Assembly: GCA_029210875.1 (NCBI GenBank) | Contig: JARGFJ010000017.1 | Span: 1-48,760, forward strand | DNA: 48,760 nt | From: Gammaproteobacteria bacterium | GTDB taxonomy: Bacteria > Pseudomonadota > Gammaproteobacteria > Nitrosococcales > Methylophagaceae | Reading direction: 5' to 3' | In this document: positions 26,490 to 48,675 of the stretch, in pieces | Layout of the letters: each line of letters begins with the position of its first letter | Numbering within the stretch: position 1 is the stretch's first letter | Notes under the pieces: generated by a model | What the model saw: the letters and a program-made list of their open reading frames with translations, nothing else | The model's database searches: none | Told to the model about the DNA's origin: nothing | Program-made: the position numbers and the translations under genes

Positions 26490-28670
26490 ATGGAATCTGA
26501 TTACGATATAGCGCAGGAAGAGCGGCCTCAATGGAAGGCGGCAGATAACCAAAACACGGTAGACGATCCGTTATTAGGTTGCCTGGAACTTCTTGCCAAA
26601 ATTTTGCATAAACCGCACAGTGGTCAGTCACTTATCGCTGGTTTACCTTTGGTGAACAACAAACTAACCCCTAAGTTATTTTCGCGCGCTGCAGAACGCG
26701 CAGGATTATCGTCTAAAGTTGTTAACAGACCGCTCCGAAAAATTTCTAATTTAGTTTTACCTGCGGTGTTGTTGCTTGAAAATAGTACGGCTTGTGTTGT
26801 AGTTCAATTTAACCGAAAGACAGCATTGGTTGTTTTTCCTGAAACAGGCGAAGGTGAAACAGAAGTTCCATTAAAAGAATTAATCAACCAATACACGGGT
26901 TATGCCATTTTTGTTAAGCCGGTTCATCAATTTGATCAACGTACTCAACATAGCGAAATACCTCGAACCAAACATTGGTTTTGGGGAACAATTCTGCGCT
27001 TTTGGCCTATTTATGGCGAAGTGTTTATCGCATCCATTTTAGTGAACAGTTTTGCATTGGCCTCGCCACTATTTATCATGAATGTCTATGATCGTGTTGT
27101 GCCTAACCATGCGATTGAAACATTGTGGGTGTTGGCGATAGGTGTTGGAACAGTATTTATATTTGATTTATTACTACGGACATTGCGTGGTTACTTTATT
27201 GATATGGCTGGTAAAAAAGCCGACGTTATTTTATCAGCAACCATATTTGAAAAAGTGATGGGAGTTAAAATGGCTTCCCGCTCAAATTCGGTTGGTTCTT
27301 TTGCAAACAATATGCATGAGTTTGAATCGTTTCGAGAATTTTTTACATCAGCAACATTGACGACGTTGATAGACCTCCCATTTATGTTTTTATTTATATT
27401 CGTGATTTGGTCTATTGCAGGAGAGTTGGCCTATGTACCCCTTGCTGTCATTCCTTTGGCGATTTTGGTTAGTCTTATTATTCAAATTCCCCTAGGTCGT
27501 ACAATTAAACATTTGTTTCAGCATTCAGGGCAAAAAAGTGCAACGCTGATAGAAACCTTAACGGGCTTGGAAACAATTAAGAGTTTAGGTGCTGAATCAC
27601 CCGTGCAACGCAAATGGGAGCAAACAATAGGCTTTATCTCTAAATACAGTCAACGTGCTCGAATTCTTTCTTCGACAGCGGTCAATTTTACCTCTTTCTT
27701 ACAACAAATGGCCTCAGTCGCTGTTGTTGTGTTTGGCGTTTATAAAATCACCGAAGGTGACATTACAATGGGAGCCTTGATTGCCAGCACCATATTAACG
27801 GGGCGAGCTTTGGCTCCGATGGGGCAAGTTGCTGGCATATTGACACGCTATCATCAGTCTCGGGCAGCGTTGAGTTCACTCAATACCTTGATGAATTTAC
27901 CTGTTGAACGTCCTAGTGGAAGAGAATTTTTGCATCGCCCTGAATTCAAAGGTGGCATTGAGTTCAAAAATGTCAGCTTTCGATATCCTGAACAGCCCAT
28001 GGATGCGTTGTCTGACGTATCATTTTCAATCAAGGCTGGTGAAAAAGTAGCGTTTATAGGTCGAATTGGTTCGGGAAAAAGTACCATTGAGAAATTGGTG
28101 TTGGGACTGTATGAACCAGCTGATGGTGCAATTTTGCTGGATGGCACCGATATTCGCCAAATTGATCCGGTAGATTTACGACGTAATGTCGGTTACGCGC
28201 CACAAGATGTAGTGCTGTTCTTTGGAAGTATTCGAGATAATATTGCTTTAGGTAAACCCTTTGCTGATGATGAGTCTGTATTAAAAGCGGCAGAAACAGC
28301 GGGTGTGACCGAGTTTGTTAATCGACACCCATCAGGATTTGATATGCAAGTGGGTGAGCGTGGTGAGGGATTATCTGGCGGTCAACGCCAAAGCGTAACC
28401 GTAGCTCGCGCATTATTAATGGATCCTCCCGTGCTGGTGTTAGATGAGCCAACCAATGCCATGGACAATAGTACGGAAGAACGTTTTAAAATGAAGTTAA
28501 CAGCGACATTAGACGATAAAACCTTATTATTGGTAACACATAAAGCGTCATTATTAAGTTTAGTAGATCGTATTATTGTTATGGATCAAGCAAGAATAGT
28601 AGCTGATGGCCCGCGTGACCAAGTGTTGGCCGCGCTTAAGAAAGGTCACATCAAAGTGACAAAAGGATAA
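26490..28670 (+). CDS. lapB: Type I secretion ABC transporter, LapB type
   Basis: Inner-membrane permease/ATPase of a type I system exporting large adhesins or RTX proteins. 726 residues: N-terminal C39-like domain (about 25-150) apparently without the peptidase cysteine, so a binding rather than cleaving domain; six membrane helices (about 175-450); then the ATPase with Walker A GRIGSGKST (about 523-531), signature LSGGQRQ (about 627) and Walker B VLVLDEPT. First gene of a four-gene run with a membrane fusion protein, a regulator and a TolC-like channel. Exporters of this layout (LapB/RtxB) usually carry biofilm adhesins; the cargo gene is not in the window. Confidence 0.92.
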   Translation: MESDYDIAQEERPQWKAADNQNTVDDPLLGCLELLAKILHKPHSGQSLIAGLPLVNNKLTPKLFSRAAERAGLSSKVVNRPLRKISNLVLPAVLLLENSTACVVVQFNRKTALVVFPETGEGETEVPLKELINQYTGYAIFVKPVHQFDQRTQHSEIPRTKHWFWGTILRFWPIYGEVFIASILVNSFALASPLFIMNVYDRVVPNHAIETLWVLAIGVGTVFIFDLLLRTLRGYFIDMAGKKADVILSATIFEKVMGVKMASRSNSVGSFANNMHEFESFREFFTSATLTTLIDLPFMFLFIFVIWSIAGELAYVPLAVIPLAILVSLIIQIPLGRTIKHLFQHSGQKSATLIETLTGLETIKSLGAESPVQRKWEQTIGFISKYSQRARILSSTAVNFTSFLQQMASVAVVVFGVYKITEGDITMGALIASTILTGRALAPMGQVAGILTRYHQSRAALSSLNTLMNLPVERPSGREFLHRPEFKGGIEFKNVSFRYPEQPMDALSDVSFSIKAGEKVAFIGRIGSGKSTIEKLVLGLYEPADGAILLDGTDIRQIDPVDLRRNVGYAPQDVVLFFGSIRDNIALGKPFADDESVLKAAETAGVTEFVNRHPSGFDMQVGERGEGLSGGQRQSVTVARALLMDPPVLVLDEPTNAMDNSTEERFKMKLTATLDDKTLLLVTHKASLLSLVDRIIVMDQARIVADGPRDQVLAALKKGHIKVTKG

Positions 28671-39574: not shown

Positions 39575-39913
39575 TTAGTCAAACATCCAGGCACCTGGGT
39601 TAGGATGTGCCTGCTGATTATCTAAGTATTTCATACCTTTAACACAGCGAATAATAATCCAGAACGCGGTAAATAAAAGGATGAAATAACCAATTAGAAT
39701 GATAGTGAGTAGCATACCCAATAAAACATAGGCTAGCCCAAACCAGAATGTGCGAATTTGAAACTGATAATGGCTTTGTAGCCATTCCGGAGCATCATCT
39801 TTATTCACATAGGCCATAACTACACCGATAATGCCTAAAAATGGTACTAAGATATTCACCAGAAATAAGATATAAACTAAACGACAGCTTGTTATTGCAC
39901 TTGAGTTATCCAA
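39575..39913 (-). CDS. Small membrane protein, DUF4870-like
   Basis: 112 residues with about three membrane segments (LVYILFLVNILVPFLGIIGVV, FWFGLAYVLLGMLLTIILIG, FILLFTAFWIII). Typical family pieces: YVNKDDAPEWLQSHYQFQIRTFW in the first loop and RCVKGMKYL..HPNPGAWMFD at the end. Function unknown. Last gene on the minus strand after the metal permease (25 bases away), so possibly cotranscribed with it. Confidence 0.75.
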   Translation of the reverse strand: MDNSSAITSCRLVYILFLVNILVPFLGIIGVVMAYVNKDDAPEWLQSHYQFQIRTFWFGLAYVLLGMLLTIILIGYFILLFTAFWIIIRCVKGMKYLDNQQAHPNPGAWMFD

Positions 39914-39938
39914 CGTTATGGTCCTTATAAAATAAAAA

Positions 39939-40718
39939 TTACCTGAGCCATTTTGCCATAAATTTCCTGCTTGTTACGTGATGAATCAAAAATCCACTCA
40001 GCAGTAATGTCCATACAATAATCGCGCCTGTAGGCAAATCAAAGAGTAGTGAAGCAACCAAGCCAGCTAGATAGCCGGTTAAACCGATACTATAAGCAAC
40101 AAATAACCTAGTGTTGCTATTCTGTATTTTGCGCGTCGCCAGTGCCGGTAAAATTAAACTGGCAAAGACCAGATAGATGCCGACTAATTGTACGGAAGCC
40201 GTTACAGCCAATGAGAACAGCAGATAAAACAACATAGGATGCTGTGCGCGTTTGATAATGAACCAAATCAGTAATAGCGGAATATAAAGCGTCAATACAG
40301 CTAATAATTGTTCGCTATTGACCCATAAAATCTGGCCAACCAGTAAATCATGCAGTAACTCGTCACTATTCGGCGCATAACTGGCTAATAATAAACCAGC
40401 ACTTGCAGCCAAAACAAAAAGCAAACCAATTAATGCTTCTAAAATAGCGCCATGATTTTTTTCTAACCAATGAATAAAAGCAGCACCGGCAACTGCACTT
40501 AATCCTGCAAACAGTTGTATTTGCCAGGAATGTAATTCACCACCGAACACAGTGGCAGCAATTACCCCCAAAGCAGCAATTTGAGCAATGGCAATATCAA
40601 TAAAGATAATGCCACGCTTAAGTACTTCTTGCCCTAACGGTACATGTGTGGATAACACAAGTGTACCTGCCAGAAAGGCAGGCACAACAAGCATTACATC
40701 AAAATCAGCTCCGATCAT
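39939..40718 (-). CDS. Metal ABC transporter permease, ZnuB-like
   Basis: 259 residues, seven or eight membrane helices. ABC-3 family features: PLGQEVLKRGIIFIDIAIAQ near the start (the usual PLG..V..RG..F..DA..H pattern), LEALIGLLFVLAASAG, and the late VGIYLVFASLILPALAT segment. Partner of the binding protein upstream, overlapping its stop by four bases. The expected ATPase gene is not on either side; either an ATPase is encoded elsewhere or the system is incomplete. Confidence 0.87.
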   Translation of the reverse strand: MIGADFDVMLVVPAFLAGTLVLSTHVPLGQEVLKRGIIFIDIAIAQIAALGVIAATVFGGELHSWQIQLFAGLSAVAGAAFIHWLEKNHGAILEALIGLLFVLAASAGLLLASYAPNSDELLHDLLVGQILWVNSEQLLAVLTLYIPLLLIWFIIKRAQHPMLFYLLFSLAVTASVQLVGIYLVFASLILPALATRKIQNSNTRLFVAYSIGLTGYLAGLVASLLFDLPTGAIIVWTLLLSGFLIHHVTSRKFMAKWLR

Positions 40719-41614
40719 TGCTTAGCGGCATCCAGCAAACGCTGAATAGTGTTATCAAACAAGCTGAACAAATCCTTGCTTTGCTCATTACCACCAATGG
40801 TAAAAGGTAACGTAACAGATGTGATGGCTGTTTTATCGACCAGCCAATCACTTGCTTTACTTGATTGATAAGCCGCATGAATCACCATTTTTGCTGGCGT
40901 AGTTTTGAGTTGATTTAGGGTGTTATTTAAATCAGATACCGTTGGCGGCACGCCTGGTTTCGATTCGAGTACAGTCACTTTATTTAAACCTAACCAATCA
41001 AATAGATAGCCCCAACTATTGTGTTGGACAACAACATTTACCCCTTTAAGTGGTGCTGCTTGTTGTTGCCAGTTATCAATAGCGGCTTGCCAGCGCTGAT
41101 TAAAATCATCAAAACGTTGTTGATAGAAGACGGCATTAACCCTATCAATTTCTTGCATGCGTTGAGACAATGCCTGTGCAACTTTCACTATATTTAATGG
41201 ACTGGTTTGAATATGTGGGTTACCAGCCGCATGAATATGACCTTGGCTACGATCAAGTGATGTTGGAATATCGATCAATGTGACATAGTTGCTCACCATA
41301 AAATAACCAGAAGCACCAGTTTGAATTACTGAATTACCGGCTTTAGCTTGTAATAGTGGCAACCATCCAGATTCCAGTTCTGCTCCAGTACAAACCAATA
41401 AATCAGCACGTCTGGCTTTAGCAATGAGACTAGGACGGGCTTGAATATAATGTGGATCTTGCAGACCTGTAGTGGCAGAAAAAACACTGACTTTATCACC
41501 TCCCAATTCTTCGCTTAATGAAGCCCATTCAGGTTCACAGGCAAAAATAGTCAGATCAGCCTGCACCGCAGAGCTGAATACACTTAAAAATACTATTATG
41601 TATAAAAATTTCAT
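40715..41614 (-). CDS. Periplasmic metal-binding protein, ZnuA-like
   Basis: 299 residues. Signal peptide MKFLYIIVFLSVFSSAVQA; cluster A-I fold. Candidate zinc ligands: His in QDPHYIQ, His in AAGNPHIQTS, His in VVQHNSWGY and a late acidic position; the short histidine patch SQGHIHAAGNPH stands in for the longer His-rich loop of classical ZnuA. Zinc (or manganese) capture is inferred from family. Twelve bases after the outer-membrane protein gene. Confidence 0.87.
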   Translation of the reverse strand: MKFLYIIVFLSVFSSAVQADLTIFACEPEWASLSEELGGDKVSVFSATTGLQDPHYIQARPSLIAKARRADLLVCTGAELESGWLPLLQAKAGNSVIQTGASGYFMVSNYVTLIDIPTSLDRSQGHIHAAGNPHIQTSPLNIVKVAQALSQRMQEIDRVNAVFYQQRFDDFNQRWQAAIDNWQQQAAPLKGVNVVVQHNSWGYLFDWLGLNKVTVLESKPGVPPTVSDLNNTLNQLKTTPAKMVIHAAYQSSKASDWLVDKTAITSVTLPFTIGGNEQSKDLFSLFDNTIQRLLDAAKQ

Positions 41615-41626
41615 TTTGTTCGTCCT

Positions 41627-42991
41627 TTAAAAGCTATGAGCACCATGGGCACCGATACTAACGGTATATTGTAAGAACAATTGCGTGTCATCGTTGCGCG
41701 AAGATTTATCACGATTGACCTGAGCGCGAACACGGCTGAATTCGCTTGGTAGCCACTCCAACATTAAACTGTAACGTTGTGGATGGAAGCCTGAGAAATC
41801 CAGATCGGCATCAGTCAGTAATTCATTATCGGAAGCGCGCAATTTACTGCCTAACCAGTCATAACGTGCACCAGTACGCCAGCGAGGCGCAAATTGATAA
41901 ATACCTTCAATAAAGCCACCGTATTGTTTAGCATCGTATTGTGCTAATTCAGCACTATTATTGAGTTGACCATCTTCATTGAGATAAAAATATTCTCCTA
42001 ATAAGGTGATATTTTTTTGTTTGAAATTACCATTAGGTGCCCATTTATAAATCAAAGACACATTACTGATATCCGTGTCACCGTTGAAAAGCACAGGATC
42101 AGCGACAGCATCACCGCCGTGATTATGACCACCAGCATACTCGCGATCTTTTGGACTAGATTGCCAATGTGACGCACTGGCTTGCCAACTATGATTAGTG
42201 CCTATATCGCCACCTGTCCGCGCATAGATTAACCAGTCACCAATGCCACTGTTGGTGCCAGCACCTGGATGCTGATCACCACTACCAACCGTACCTCCTA
42301 ATTCGATCATCTGATCAGTCGGTAATAAATACGAAAATTTAACACCATCTGTGGTCAGTTGATTGCCAAATAGCCCACGATAAATCAGTGGTGCATCGGC
42401 AAAGTTCCATGCATGGATGTGTTTTTCATTCAGGTAGCCCATTGGTGAATAAAAGCGACCCGCTCGAACTGTGATGCCATTGCCTAGGCCCAAGGTTTGT
42501 ATAAAGGCTTCTTCAATGCCCACTTCTGTCGTGCCAGCATCATCATGCAAGGCAATGGTTGATTGACCAAAGAATAGTTGATCTATACTTGCACTCACAG
42601 TGATCTCACTTTCACCTAATGACAACCCTTCTGGCGCCAAACCACCTTCGTCCTGAAGTGCAAAACCACTCAGTTCATAGTTGTCTGGCGAGTCACTATA
42701 GTCACTGAACTGACCATTCAATACCATACTAATTGCTGGGTTGAAGCTGTTATTGTTACGTGTTGTCGCTGTTGATGTCGATGTTGCTTTAACACTAGCT
42801 ACCTCAGTTTTAACGGCATTCGTTGTGACTTCAGTTTGAGCGAGACGTTGTTCTAATTGCTCAATTCTTTGCTCATAGTCAGCTCTCATTTGTAAAAACT
42901 CGGCTTTTAGATCGCTGATTTGATCAGCATGTGCAGATATAGACGTGCCTAAGCTTGCTGCGATAAGCAGCGCTAATTTTAATGGTTTCAT
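41627..42991 (-). CDS. Porin-like outer membrane protein with N-terminal coiled coil
   Basis: 454 residues. Signal peptide (KPLKLALLIAASLGTSISAHA), a short coiled coil (LKAEFLQMRADYEQRIEQLE), a Thr/Ser-rich linker, then a barrel with alternating aromatic strands (GITVRAGRFYSPMGYLNEKH, NITLLGEYFYLNEDG, TQLFLQYTVSIG). Histidine/glycine patches (GGHNHGGD, GAHGAHSF) fit a metal-related role. It sits first or second in the metal uptake operon and may pass zinc across the outer membrane. No TonB box or plug domain is visible, so it is not a TonB receptor. Function is inferred from neighbours. Confidence 0.8.
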   Translation of the reverse strand: MKPLKLALLIAASLGTSISAHADQISDLKAEFLQMRADYEQRIEQLEQRLAQTEVTTNAVKTEVASVKATSTSTATTRNNNSFNPAISMVLNGQFSDYSDSPDNYELSGFALQDEGGLAPEGLSLGESEITVSASIDQLFFGQSTIALHDDAGTTEVGIEEAFIQTLGLGNGITVRAGRFYSPMGYLNEKHIHAWNFADAPLIYRGLFGNQLTTDGVKFSYLLPTDQMIELGGTVGSGDQHPGAGTNSGIGDWLIYARTGGDIGTNHSWQASASHWQSSPKDREYAGGHNHGGDAVADPVLFNGDTDISNVSLIYKWAPNGNFKQKNITLLGEYFYLNEDGQLNNSAELAQYDAKQYGGFIEGIYQFAPRWRTGARYDWLGSKLRASDNELLTDADLDFSGFHPQRYSLMLEWLPSEFSRVRAQVNRDKSSRNDDTQLFLQYTVSIGAHGAHSF

Positions 42992-43068
42992 TGTGTTTCC
43001 TCATAGCATACAGATAGGAAAAGAATGTCAATAAGACGGATCTTTCCTGTTACGTTTTTGTTAGGGGG

Positions 43069-43359
43069 CTATGCGTATTGAGGTGGAGCACGGATAGGAT
43101 GATTCGACTCGATATAAGTTTGTAACAACAGTGTTGTTACAACAACGTCGATCAATACGATCGAGATTGAGTGAAACAATTCGGGAACTGTAGTGAGACT
43201 AGCAGTAGGAGTATGACTTACTGCCTCATATTTAGAACATTCCTGAGTAGCTTGATGAAATGGATGTGAGGTATCATGCCAAACAGCAAACGCCTGCATT
43301 AACAGCAAAATAGCTGTTAAGGCATATAGTAAGCGATGTGAAGGCATGGATTTTATCAT
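43069..43359 (-). CDS. Small His-containing membrane protein (96 aa)
   Basis: Starts MIKSMPSHRLLYALTAILLL; one N-terminal hydrophobic segment, a histidine/cysteine-containing middle (WHDTSHPFHQATQECSKYE), and a second hydrophobic stretch (SISIVLIDVVVTTLLLQTYI). The layout recalls the short DUF2946-like proteins encoded next to metal transport genes. It lies 77 bases upstream of the outer-membrane protein on the same strand. Possibly metal-responsive; function unknown. Confidence 0.55.
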   Translation of the reverse strand: MIKSMPSHRLLYALTAILLLMQAFAVWHDTSHPFHQATQECSKYEAVSHTPTASLTTVPELFHSISIVLIDVVVTTLLLQTYIESNHPIRAPPQYA

Positions 43360-43437
43360 TGGAGAGCACAGTGCTGTTTGTAATGCGATGAGATTCTACA
43401 CACAAAGATCTGATTGATAAATGAAATCCATTTGCAA

Positions 43438-44577
<1,140 letters not shown>

Positions 44578-44583
44578 TTAGTG

Positions 44584-44931
44584 TTATTTGACAAAATGTG
44601 CGGCATAATCCGCTTGTTTGAACCCAACCAGACACGTTGAATGATCGATCAATACGGGTCGCTTGATTAACGTGGGATTAGCTAACATTAATTCAATAGC
44701 GATGACTTGATCAAGCTGTTCTTTACGAAAATCGTCCAATTGCTTCCATGTAGTGCTACGTTTATTGAGCAAGGTTTGCCATGACACGGATGTTAACAAA
44801 TGATCCATTGTTGCTTCGTCAAGTCCATCAACGCGAAAATCATGAAATTGAAAAGCCACGCCATTGGCTTCTAACCAACGGCGGGCTTTTTTTACGGTAT
44901 CGCAATTTTTAATGCCGTAAACCGTGATCAT
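44584..44931 (-). CDS. yffB: ArsC/Spx-family protein YffB
   Basis: 115 residues, thioredoxin-like ArsC family. Single N-terminal cysteine in YGIKNCDTVKKARRWL, and LIKRPVLID before the C terminus. Widely found beside dapE in gammaproteobacteria (E. coli yffB-dapE); biochemical role not settled, not an arsenate reductase as far as is known. Overlaps the dapD stop by one base. Confidence 0.93.
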   Translation of the reverse strand: MITVYGIKNCDTVKKARRWLEANGVAFQFHDFRVDGLDEATMDHLLTSVSWQTLLNKRSTTWKQLDDFRKEQLDQVIAIELMLANPTLIKRPVLIDHSTCLVGFKQADYAAHFVK

Positions 44932-48505: not shown

Positions 48506-48675
48506 AATCAGGGAAAATCGCTAAGTTGTTATTCTATAACAAGCATACTTAAATTGGTTAAAATTTAACCATAATCACAATATCTATATAAATCAATTAT
48601 TTATAGATGTATCAATAAAGATCAATGACTTAACAAGGCTTGTTATTAACACAGATTAATAATGGCAATTAATCG

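Follow-up and report, generated by a model that had tools for sequence, protein, structure and literature searches.

The stretch of DNA considered here (the window, 48,760 nucleotides (nt), which is the entire contig C8 of a 2.44 Mb genome that is 99.99% complete) comes from a gammaproteobacterium of the Methylophagaceae, and its subject of interest is a run of five genes, all on the minus strand from 43359 to 39575, that resembles a zinc importer of the ATP-binding cassette (ABC) kind and has no ATPase gene among its members. An earlier reading of the letters alone (the original prediction) had seen metal-uptake genes without an ATPase there, and all five genes lie where it placed them. The znuA- and znuB-like genes, which it called fused, are separate and overlap by 4 bases (40715–40718). 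Of its ‘small membrane proteins’, the 112-residue product is indeed a membrane protein, though a lineage-specific one, whereas the 96-residue open reading frame (ORF) has the marks of a leader peptide. The features are as follows.

43069–43359, minus strand: putative leader ORF (an upstream ORF, P0005), 96 residues, CruR/DUF2946-like; hydrophobic N-terminus, H28, H32, H35 and a single C41 (possible metal ligands), C-terminal R90-A-P-P (residues 90–93)
43081–43092, minus strand: codons for RAPP, the predicted ribosome arrest site; motif retained in relatives
42992–43068, minus strand: leader–porin intergenic region; CTATGAGGAAA or a near variant precedes the porin start (alignment of the window and 18 relatives)
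41627–42991, minus strand: porin, 454 residues; signal-like start, helix 22–67, 16 long strands, invariant H191, H193, H449 and H452
40715–41614, minus strand: ZnuA-type substrate-binding protein (SBP), 299 residues; PF01297 (E 5.6e-39), relatives in the PDB, invariant H55, H128, H134 and H198 (80 rows)
39939–40718, minus strand: ABC-3/ZnuB-type permease without coupling segment, 259 residues; PF00950 (E 1.3e-21), invariant D41, Q46 and E94 (75 rows)
40239–40256, minus strand: permease loop IKRAQH (residues 155–160), six residues between model helices 135–154 and 161–179
39575–39913, minus strand: DUF4870-like membrane protein, 112 residues, TTG start; follows the cluster in many loci, all of them Methylophaga-like

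A permease without its coupling segment

By profile the permease belongs to the ABC-3 family (77.8 bits, cut-off 20.1), no TRAP or TTT family was matched by this membrane subunit in Pfam, and its model (confidence score pLDDT 91.4) has the ABC-3 fold, with 247 residues aligned to PsaB at Z 24.2 and a root-mean-square deviation of 3.2. What such permeases lack is some 19 residues at the expected place of the ATPase-coupling loop. From one flanking anchor to the other the length is exactly 70 residues in every one of the 35 canonical permeases and 49–59 in 109 of 110 permeases from ATPase-less loci, 72 of these having 51, and the one remaining, L072, is masked (N) at the segment. The same place is picked out by the Pfam match, broken there in 22 of 25 Methylophaga-family permeases (into 4–144 and 170–248 for that of the window) and bridged in G002, G005 and G019, by a phmmer comparison with the solved ZnuB (9oko chain B), where the gap opens at the same segment, and by the model, where a mere six residues link the two helices. 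The difference extends beyond the loop, as the canonical motif of transmembrane helix 2 (TM2), GD..AH, is replaced in the ATPase-less permeases by F.D.A.AQ.A. When the segment columns are removed and a tree is built (two ATPase-less rows being dropped as too short), a single branch with SH-aLRT 99 separates 108 ATPase-less rows from 35 canonical ones.

Spread of the module

How widely is such a cluster found, and does an ATPase gene accompany it anywhere? The SBP was used to search genome contigs, the best 80 loci out of 285 relatives were kept, and with 29 more from a phylum-wide search and 2 records from a plasmid collection they form a set of 111 loci that is partly non-independent, L068 and L181 being identical and some contigs stopping near the cluster. 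Within the best 80, tblastn placed the porin gene in 79 and the permease gene in 79, in conserved order; the two exceptions, L011 and L050 (the latter the one without a permease), are cut by contig ends. Outlying genes differ between groups of loci. The original prediction had named relatives with a co-transcribed ATPase gene as what would refute it, and on this test it was not refuted: a ZnuC-type gene lies within the cluster in none of the 111 loci, while the same scan finds an ABC ATPase at most 1.5 kb away in all 34 canonical ABC-3 loci. Some ABC ATPase is present in the examined DNA of 15 of the 111 loci, and no partner recurring near the loci was found. Three close cases were rejected: the ATPase within 1.5 kb of the permease in L038 is CcmA, that of L081, 1.45 kb off on the opposite strand, is ModC-like, and that of L180 is part of an adjacent canonical znuBC and not of this cluster.

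The closest relative of the SBP (95%) is from a gammaproteobacterium, and the next (about 66–75%) are mostly from Methylophaga and Methylophagaceae. Taken together the best 80 loci are mostly from Gamma- and Betaproteobacteria, with some from Alphaproteobacteria, one from Zetaproteobacteria and one from a metagenome-assembled genome of Desulfocapsaceae; a Sulfurovum plasmid also bears the module, there annotated as ‘zinc ABC transporter substrate-binding protein’ and ‘metal ABC transporter permease’. In a branch that is only about 30% identical, all three loci fetched have a RAPP leader, porin, SBP and permease and no ATPase, and the porins end in GPHGAHPY or GPHRPHSY. Across the phylum a match above 100 bits was obtained in 41 of 299 genomes (the window’s own included); the remaining hits lie at about 50 bits or below, apart from a partial match at 61. 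Within the Methylophaga family 25 of 57 genomes carry the SBP, a strong full-length canonical ABC-3 match occurs in four of the 57 (G015, G020, G035 and G036), and 22 of the 25 that bear the SBP show no canonical ABC-3 match, some of these genomes being incomplete. Separately, five genomes of one family (G073, G081, G104, G168 and G268) have two permease matches of the ATPase-less type on separate contigs, and in L044 (3133–3423) and L045 an extra small ORF with a lipoprotein-like start stands between SBP and permease.

The last gene of the run in the window probably does not belong to the core module. Its DUF4870 match is 19.9 bits, under the Pfam cut-off of 25, and tblastn found it only in the Methylophaga-like loci L010–L031, from some of which it is absent; as a core member it was rejected on those two grounds. 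Compared with its nearest relative, L010, the window is a mosaic: the DNA of porin and SBP is 93–98% identical, part of the permease (40000–40400) about 76%, the leader region (43330–43510) 54–63% and the neighbouring genes near 44570–44830 about 54%, a pattern that suggests recombination.

Binding protein and porin

Its profile match (PF01297, 134.6 bits, above the cut-off) and its conserved histidines make the SBP a member of the ZnuA family, H55, H134 and H198 being the three conserved histidines of that family. In the PDB its top relatives are binding proteins for zinc uptake, and entries for manganese, iron and adhesins rank lower.

For the porin no Pfam family was matched above cut-off, and it is the model (pLDDT 82.8) that makes it a barrel, of 16 long strands by manual count, preceded by a coiled-coil-like N-terminal helix (22–67) of low confidence. 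A 16-strand barrel with a long loop, which in that class points inward, would place it among the 16-strand trimeric porins. H191 and H193 are in that long loop (182–212), H449 and H452 are at the C-terminus, and all four are invariant in 76 rows. The closest folds are OprP (Z 29.1) and OprO, then DcaP (Z 24.2), yet identity is 12–13%, and where OprP has an arginine ladder this porin has its invariant histidines instead. The invariant histidines fit a metal-selective pore and do not prove it. Of the original prediction, both the metal uptake operon without its ATPase and the barrel as a possible zinc channel of the outer membrane, dedicated to this module, find support.

Leader peptide or Zur box

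The first ORF of the run is, judged by its residues and their spacing, probably a CruR-like regulatory leader (arrest) peptide and not a membrane subunit. Upstream of the porin 52 of 69 loci have a small ORF with RAPP or RGPP at its end, a feature shared by 9 among the 3394 other ORFs of 60–250 residues in these loci, and in 52 of 52 leaders a cysteine precedes RAPP/RGPP by 48–50 residues (49 in P0005). Under a looser rule, which asks for a RAPP-like motif with a cysteine 46–52 residues before it and was applied to the 83 loci with enough upstream DNA, 66 have a leader (49 RAPP, 13 RGPP, 3 RSPP and 1 QAPP), and the rule is satisfied at 11 of 2326 pseudo-anchors. CruR of Bordetella, by the account in PMC9426467, has CXXC, 45 residues and then RAPP, so that C90 to R139 is also 49, and its stalling permits operon expression, with copper proposed to relieve the stall; CruR leaders are described there as copper-responsive and at the head of copper operons, and PMC12992588 reports arrest by CruR in vitro. 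Like the ORF considered here, CruR (DUF2946) is the first gene of an outer-membrane transporter operon, and the differences are that the present leader heads a module of zinc type and that the 17 leaders of the Methylophaga group lack CxxC, their single cysteine following HxxxHxxH, while most other leaders have CxxC. P0005 itself has no DUF2946 match in Pfam; the leaders of 7 of 10 relatives match it under the cut-off.

Some further observations concern the leader. The leader gene contains, ahead of its RAPP codons, a perfect 11-base inverted repeat with a one-base centre (43120–43142). The Sulfurovum leader (L176, about 2410–2790) has CxxC and ends in DPHAPPYTFS, a HAPP variant outside the leader rule, and that of L015 (6218–6535) has RAPL for RAPP and a shifted end, for which natural loss or a sequencing error is possible.

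What of the loci where no leader was found? The scan for regulatory sites used what we take to be the Zur box consensus. Published Caulobacter Zur sites resemble it (PMC4176598). At no more than 2 mismatches there are 11 such boxes in 61.5 kb upstream of 89 porins and 1 in 1.10 Mb of other sequence; among the 11, the site of L089 overlaps the called start of the porin. The loci that have boxes at the porin start or shortly before it, and in which no leader was found, are L175, L245, L246, L062, L064, L081 and L089, with tandem boxes in L175 and L064. Among the 83 loci a leader is present in 66, a Zur box no more than 150 nt from where the porin starts in 7, both in none and neither in 10 (Fisher p 4.7e-6, relatedness ignored); when the span for Zur boxes is 700 nt, 65 have a leader only, 8 a Zur box only, one both and 9 neither. 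Before the 52 leaders no enrichment of Zur boxes was found in 250 nt. For the operon of the window, where the original prediction would have looked for Zur binding, no box was found at up to 3 mismatches, and it is other lineages that carry them. The sole Fur-family gene of the genome is called Fur by NCBIfam (197 bits, cut-off 146), and no match to the Zur model was obtained at E 1e-15; of the 25 cluster-bearing Methylophaga-family genomes, 11 have no Zur-like match. A Zur-box-like site with one mismatch does stand at 48527–48541, near the contig end, in this genome that has no Zur-like match.

Proposed mechanism

It is probable, in our judgement, that the module is a zinc importer made of porin, SBP and permease that works without an ABC ATPase and is controlled either by an arrest peptide that senses metal or by Zur. 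The proposal starts from gene content and its conservation, the loss of the coupling segment and the alternation of leader and Zur box, which are there to be read in the sequences. Zinc would cross the outer membrane through the dedicated, histidine-bearing porin, be bound in the periplasm by the ZnuA-type SBP and then be passed to the permease of ABC-3 fold, which, without its docking segment, would operate without any ABC ATPase. We infer that the inside-negative membrane potential, perhaps together with proton exchange, would be the driving force for such ATP-independent transport, and the SBP would confer affinity and direction in a manner similar to TRAP transporters. If the leader has arrest activity and zinc is its ligand here, then when metal is scarce the ribosome would stall at RAPP and the operon would be expressed, and when metal is plentiful its binding to the nascent chain would release the stall and turn the operon off. 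In some leaderless lineages Zur boxes would replace the leader.

Zinc or copper?

A phenotype has been described for a likely member, vpa1307 of Vibrio parahaemolyticus. From the primers in PMC3794297 its SBP contains DKQDPHYVQAR and AHGNPHVQFA, the preceding gene ends in GAHGAHAF and the next begins MTEY; the SBP and flanks so derived closely match L175 of Vibrio campbellii, and on that likeness of sequence vpa1307 would belong to this module family. As reported in that paper, vpa1307 was detected only with the chelator TPEN, its deletion lowered growth by about 70% under TPEN, and H69A/H148A abolish function; a zinc add-back was not found in the main text. The need for vpa1307 under a zinc chelator and the Zur boxes together point to zinc as the metal.

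Might it be copper instead, with a CruR-type leader in front of a histidine-rich copper entry path? Copper is the main alternative for the ligand of the leader, and as the metal of the whole module we think it unlikely. TPEN binds metals besides zinc, and CxxC is retained in most leaders outside the Methylophaga group, which, with the copper responsiveness of CruR leaders and their place at the head of copper operons, is what speaks for copper. It is hard to square with Zur boxes close to the porin start in seven loci, with a ZnuA-type SBP nearest to zinc-uptake proteins in the PDB, and with Methylophaga leaders that have a single cysteine after HxxxHxxH and not CxxC.

Import, and the question of a motor

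With zinc taken as the metal, does it enter the cytoplasm? Since the cluster encodes no energy source, and a zinc-loaded SBP might buffer the periplasm by itself, porin and SBP could feed periplasmic proteins with the permease as no more than a site for SBP docking and release. This seems quite unlikely given that the invariant D41, Q46 and E94 of the permease are polar and lie in predicted membrane helices, and that only the contig-cut L050 among the best 80 loci is without the permease.

Nor does a motor borrowed from elsewhere, of FhuC/BtuD-like or another type, seem a good answer, and we rate it very unlikely. Some sugar importers do share an ATPase, MsmK, and the genome is not short of candidates: a PF00005 search gave 44 matches, from which 33 ABC ATPase proteins were collected, with six weak partial matches left out of the assignment. 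The single ABC-3 permease found in it is that of the operon; a second PF00950 match, on contig C18, was rejected because it is a permease of FecCD type (315 bits on PF01032) and belongs to a BtuF/FhuC-like set. The original prediction had suggested a search for an orphan ZnuC, and by the ZnuC model, PF00005 and a profile test none of ZnuC type was found in the genome. The top match to the ZnuC model, 105 bits against a cut-off of 306, is also on C18; as an orphan ZnuC this ATPase was rejected, for it adjoins the FecCD permease and a Peripla_BP_2 protein, and in NCBIfam it is matched best, though under cut-off, by heme, corrinoid and FhuC ATPases, with AztA (129 bits) and ZnuC (107) ranking behind them. 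Ten further ATPases were scanned, of which four pass an NCBIfam cut-off (LolD, nitrate, PhnC and sulfate) and six have under-cut-off matches only; NosF-, TupC- and ABC-2-like ones were placed by neighbouring genes, and LptB, SufC, PstB, FtsE, ModC, ABC-F and others by sequence reading only. For the profile test a ZnuC profile was built from 33 ATPases that adjoin canonical ABC-3 permeases; scored leave-one-out, the true ones range from 188 to 373 bits, and the best single-domain ATPase of the genome, the FhuC/BtuD-like one, reaches 173.6, two-domain ATPases (up to 220 from summed domains) having been set aside. In the genomes of relatives only G015 scored high with an E. coli ZnuC query, a weak test in that the query also failed to pick up the ATPases that adjoin the canonical permeases of G035 and G036. 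It may be added that an ABC ATPase domain is present in a 727-residue open frame at about 27960–28590 of the window, 11 kb from the operon, with 58.5 bits on the ZnuC model. Against borrowing stand the absence of a recurrent partner near the loci, the service of the assignable ATPases in other systems and the coupling segment missing from 109 of 110 permeases; a permease without that segment makes an orphan ZnuC elsewhere an unlikely answer.

That the module is a degenerate relic of a ZnuABC operon after znuC loss, as the joint absence of gene and segment might hint, is hardly credible when one branch is common to several classes, permease dN/dS (the ratio of non-synonymous to synonymous substitution) is a low 0.05–0.22 (three pairs) and the four-gene order is kept in three loci of the 30% branch.

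A motorless zinc importer nevertheless has several points to contend with. The margin between 173.6 and 188 bits in the profile test is narrow, and canonical ZnuABC co-occurs with the module in G020, G035, G036 and G092 and could serve this SBP; the vpa1307 phenotype may likewise reflect a co-occurring canonical ZnuABC serving its SBP. The missing stretch is presumably, by analogy with BtuC-like structures, the coupling helix of type II importers, and the tree was made by a quick method with long branches flagged. The Zur idea arose from L175, whose two sites count among the 11, counts of leader and Zur box ignore kinship of the loci, 10 of the 83 loci have neither, and exclusivity is imperfect in that L026 has a leader and a 2-mismatch Zur site at −467. 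A Zur-like gene is present in 14 of the 25 cluster-bearing Methylophaga-family genomes, and a ZIP-type permease in the genome of the window, where the module may be one of two zinc routes, the ZIP permease being the other. CruR itself senses copper by the account in PMC9426467, so the leader could report copper.

Known systems and what the module would mean

With ZnuABC and PsaBC-type importers the module shares the SBP family and the permease family and fold; it differs in having no ATPase gene, no coupling segment, an altered TM2 motif and a porin of its own. TRAP and TTT transporters achieve SBP-dependent uptake without an ATPase, but their membrane subunits, of DctM/TctA type, are unrelated to that of the module, which is an ABC-3 permease. 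Vpa1307, as a ‘novel ZnuA subfamily’, is treated in PMC3794297 as an extra ZnuA, and the main text of that paper makes no mention of a permease gene, a porin or a missing ATPase at the locus. The RAPP survey PMC12992588 nowhere uses the word ‘zinc’ in its main text, and a term search of a Zur-regulon review (PMC6103462) and a transporter review (PMC8276074) brought up nothing of the kind. As far as the open-access literature was searched, under the terms used, the components are known, but no description was found of their motorless combination, an ABC-3 module without an ATPase, or of a RAPP leader that senses zinc.

On a stronger claim our confidence is evenly divided, namely that this would be a new class of metal transporter, dependent on an SBP but not on ATP, on an ABC-importer fold with neither motor nor docking site, together with a zinc-selective porin and the first zinc-sensing arrest peptide to replace Zur. 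Since the genes were annotated as those of an ABC transporter in the one annotated record examined, ATP-driven import may be wrongly inferred wherever the module occurs. ABC importers are defined by their ATPase, and the module offers a direct way to test whether a protein of ABC fold can act as a facilitator or secondary transporter, and what is gained by having a motor. If the proposal is true, a dedicated outer-membrane zinc porin would have been named, and a nascent-peptide sensor could substitute for Zur.

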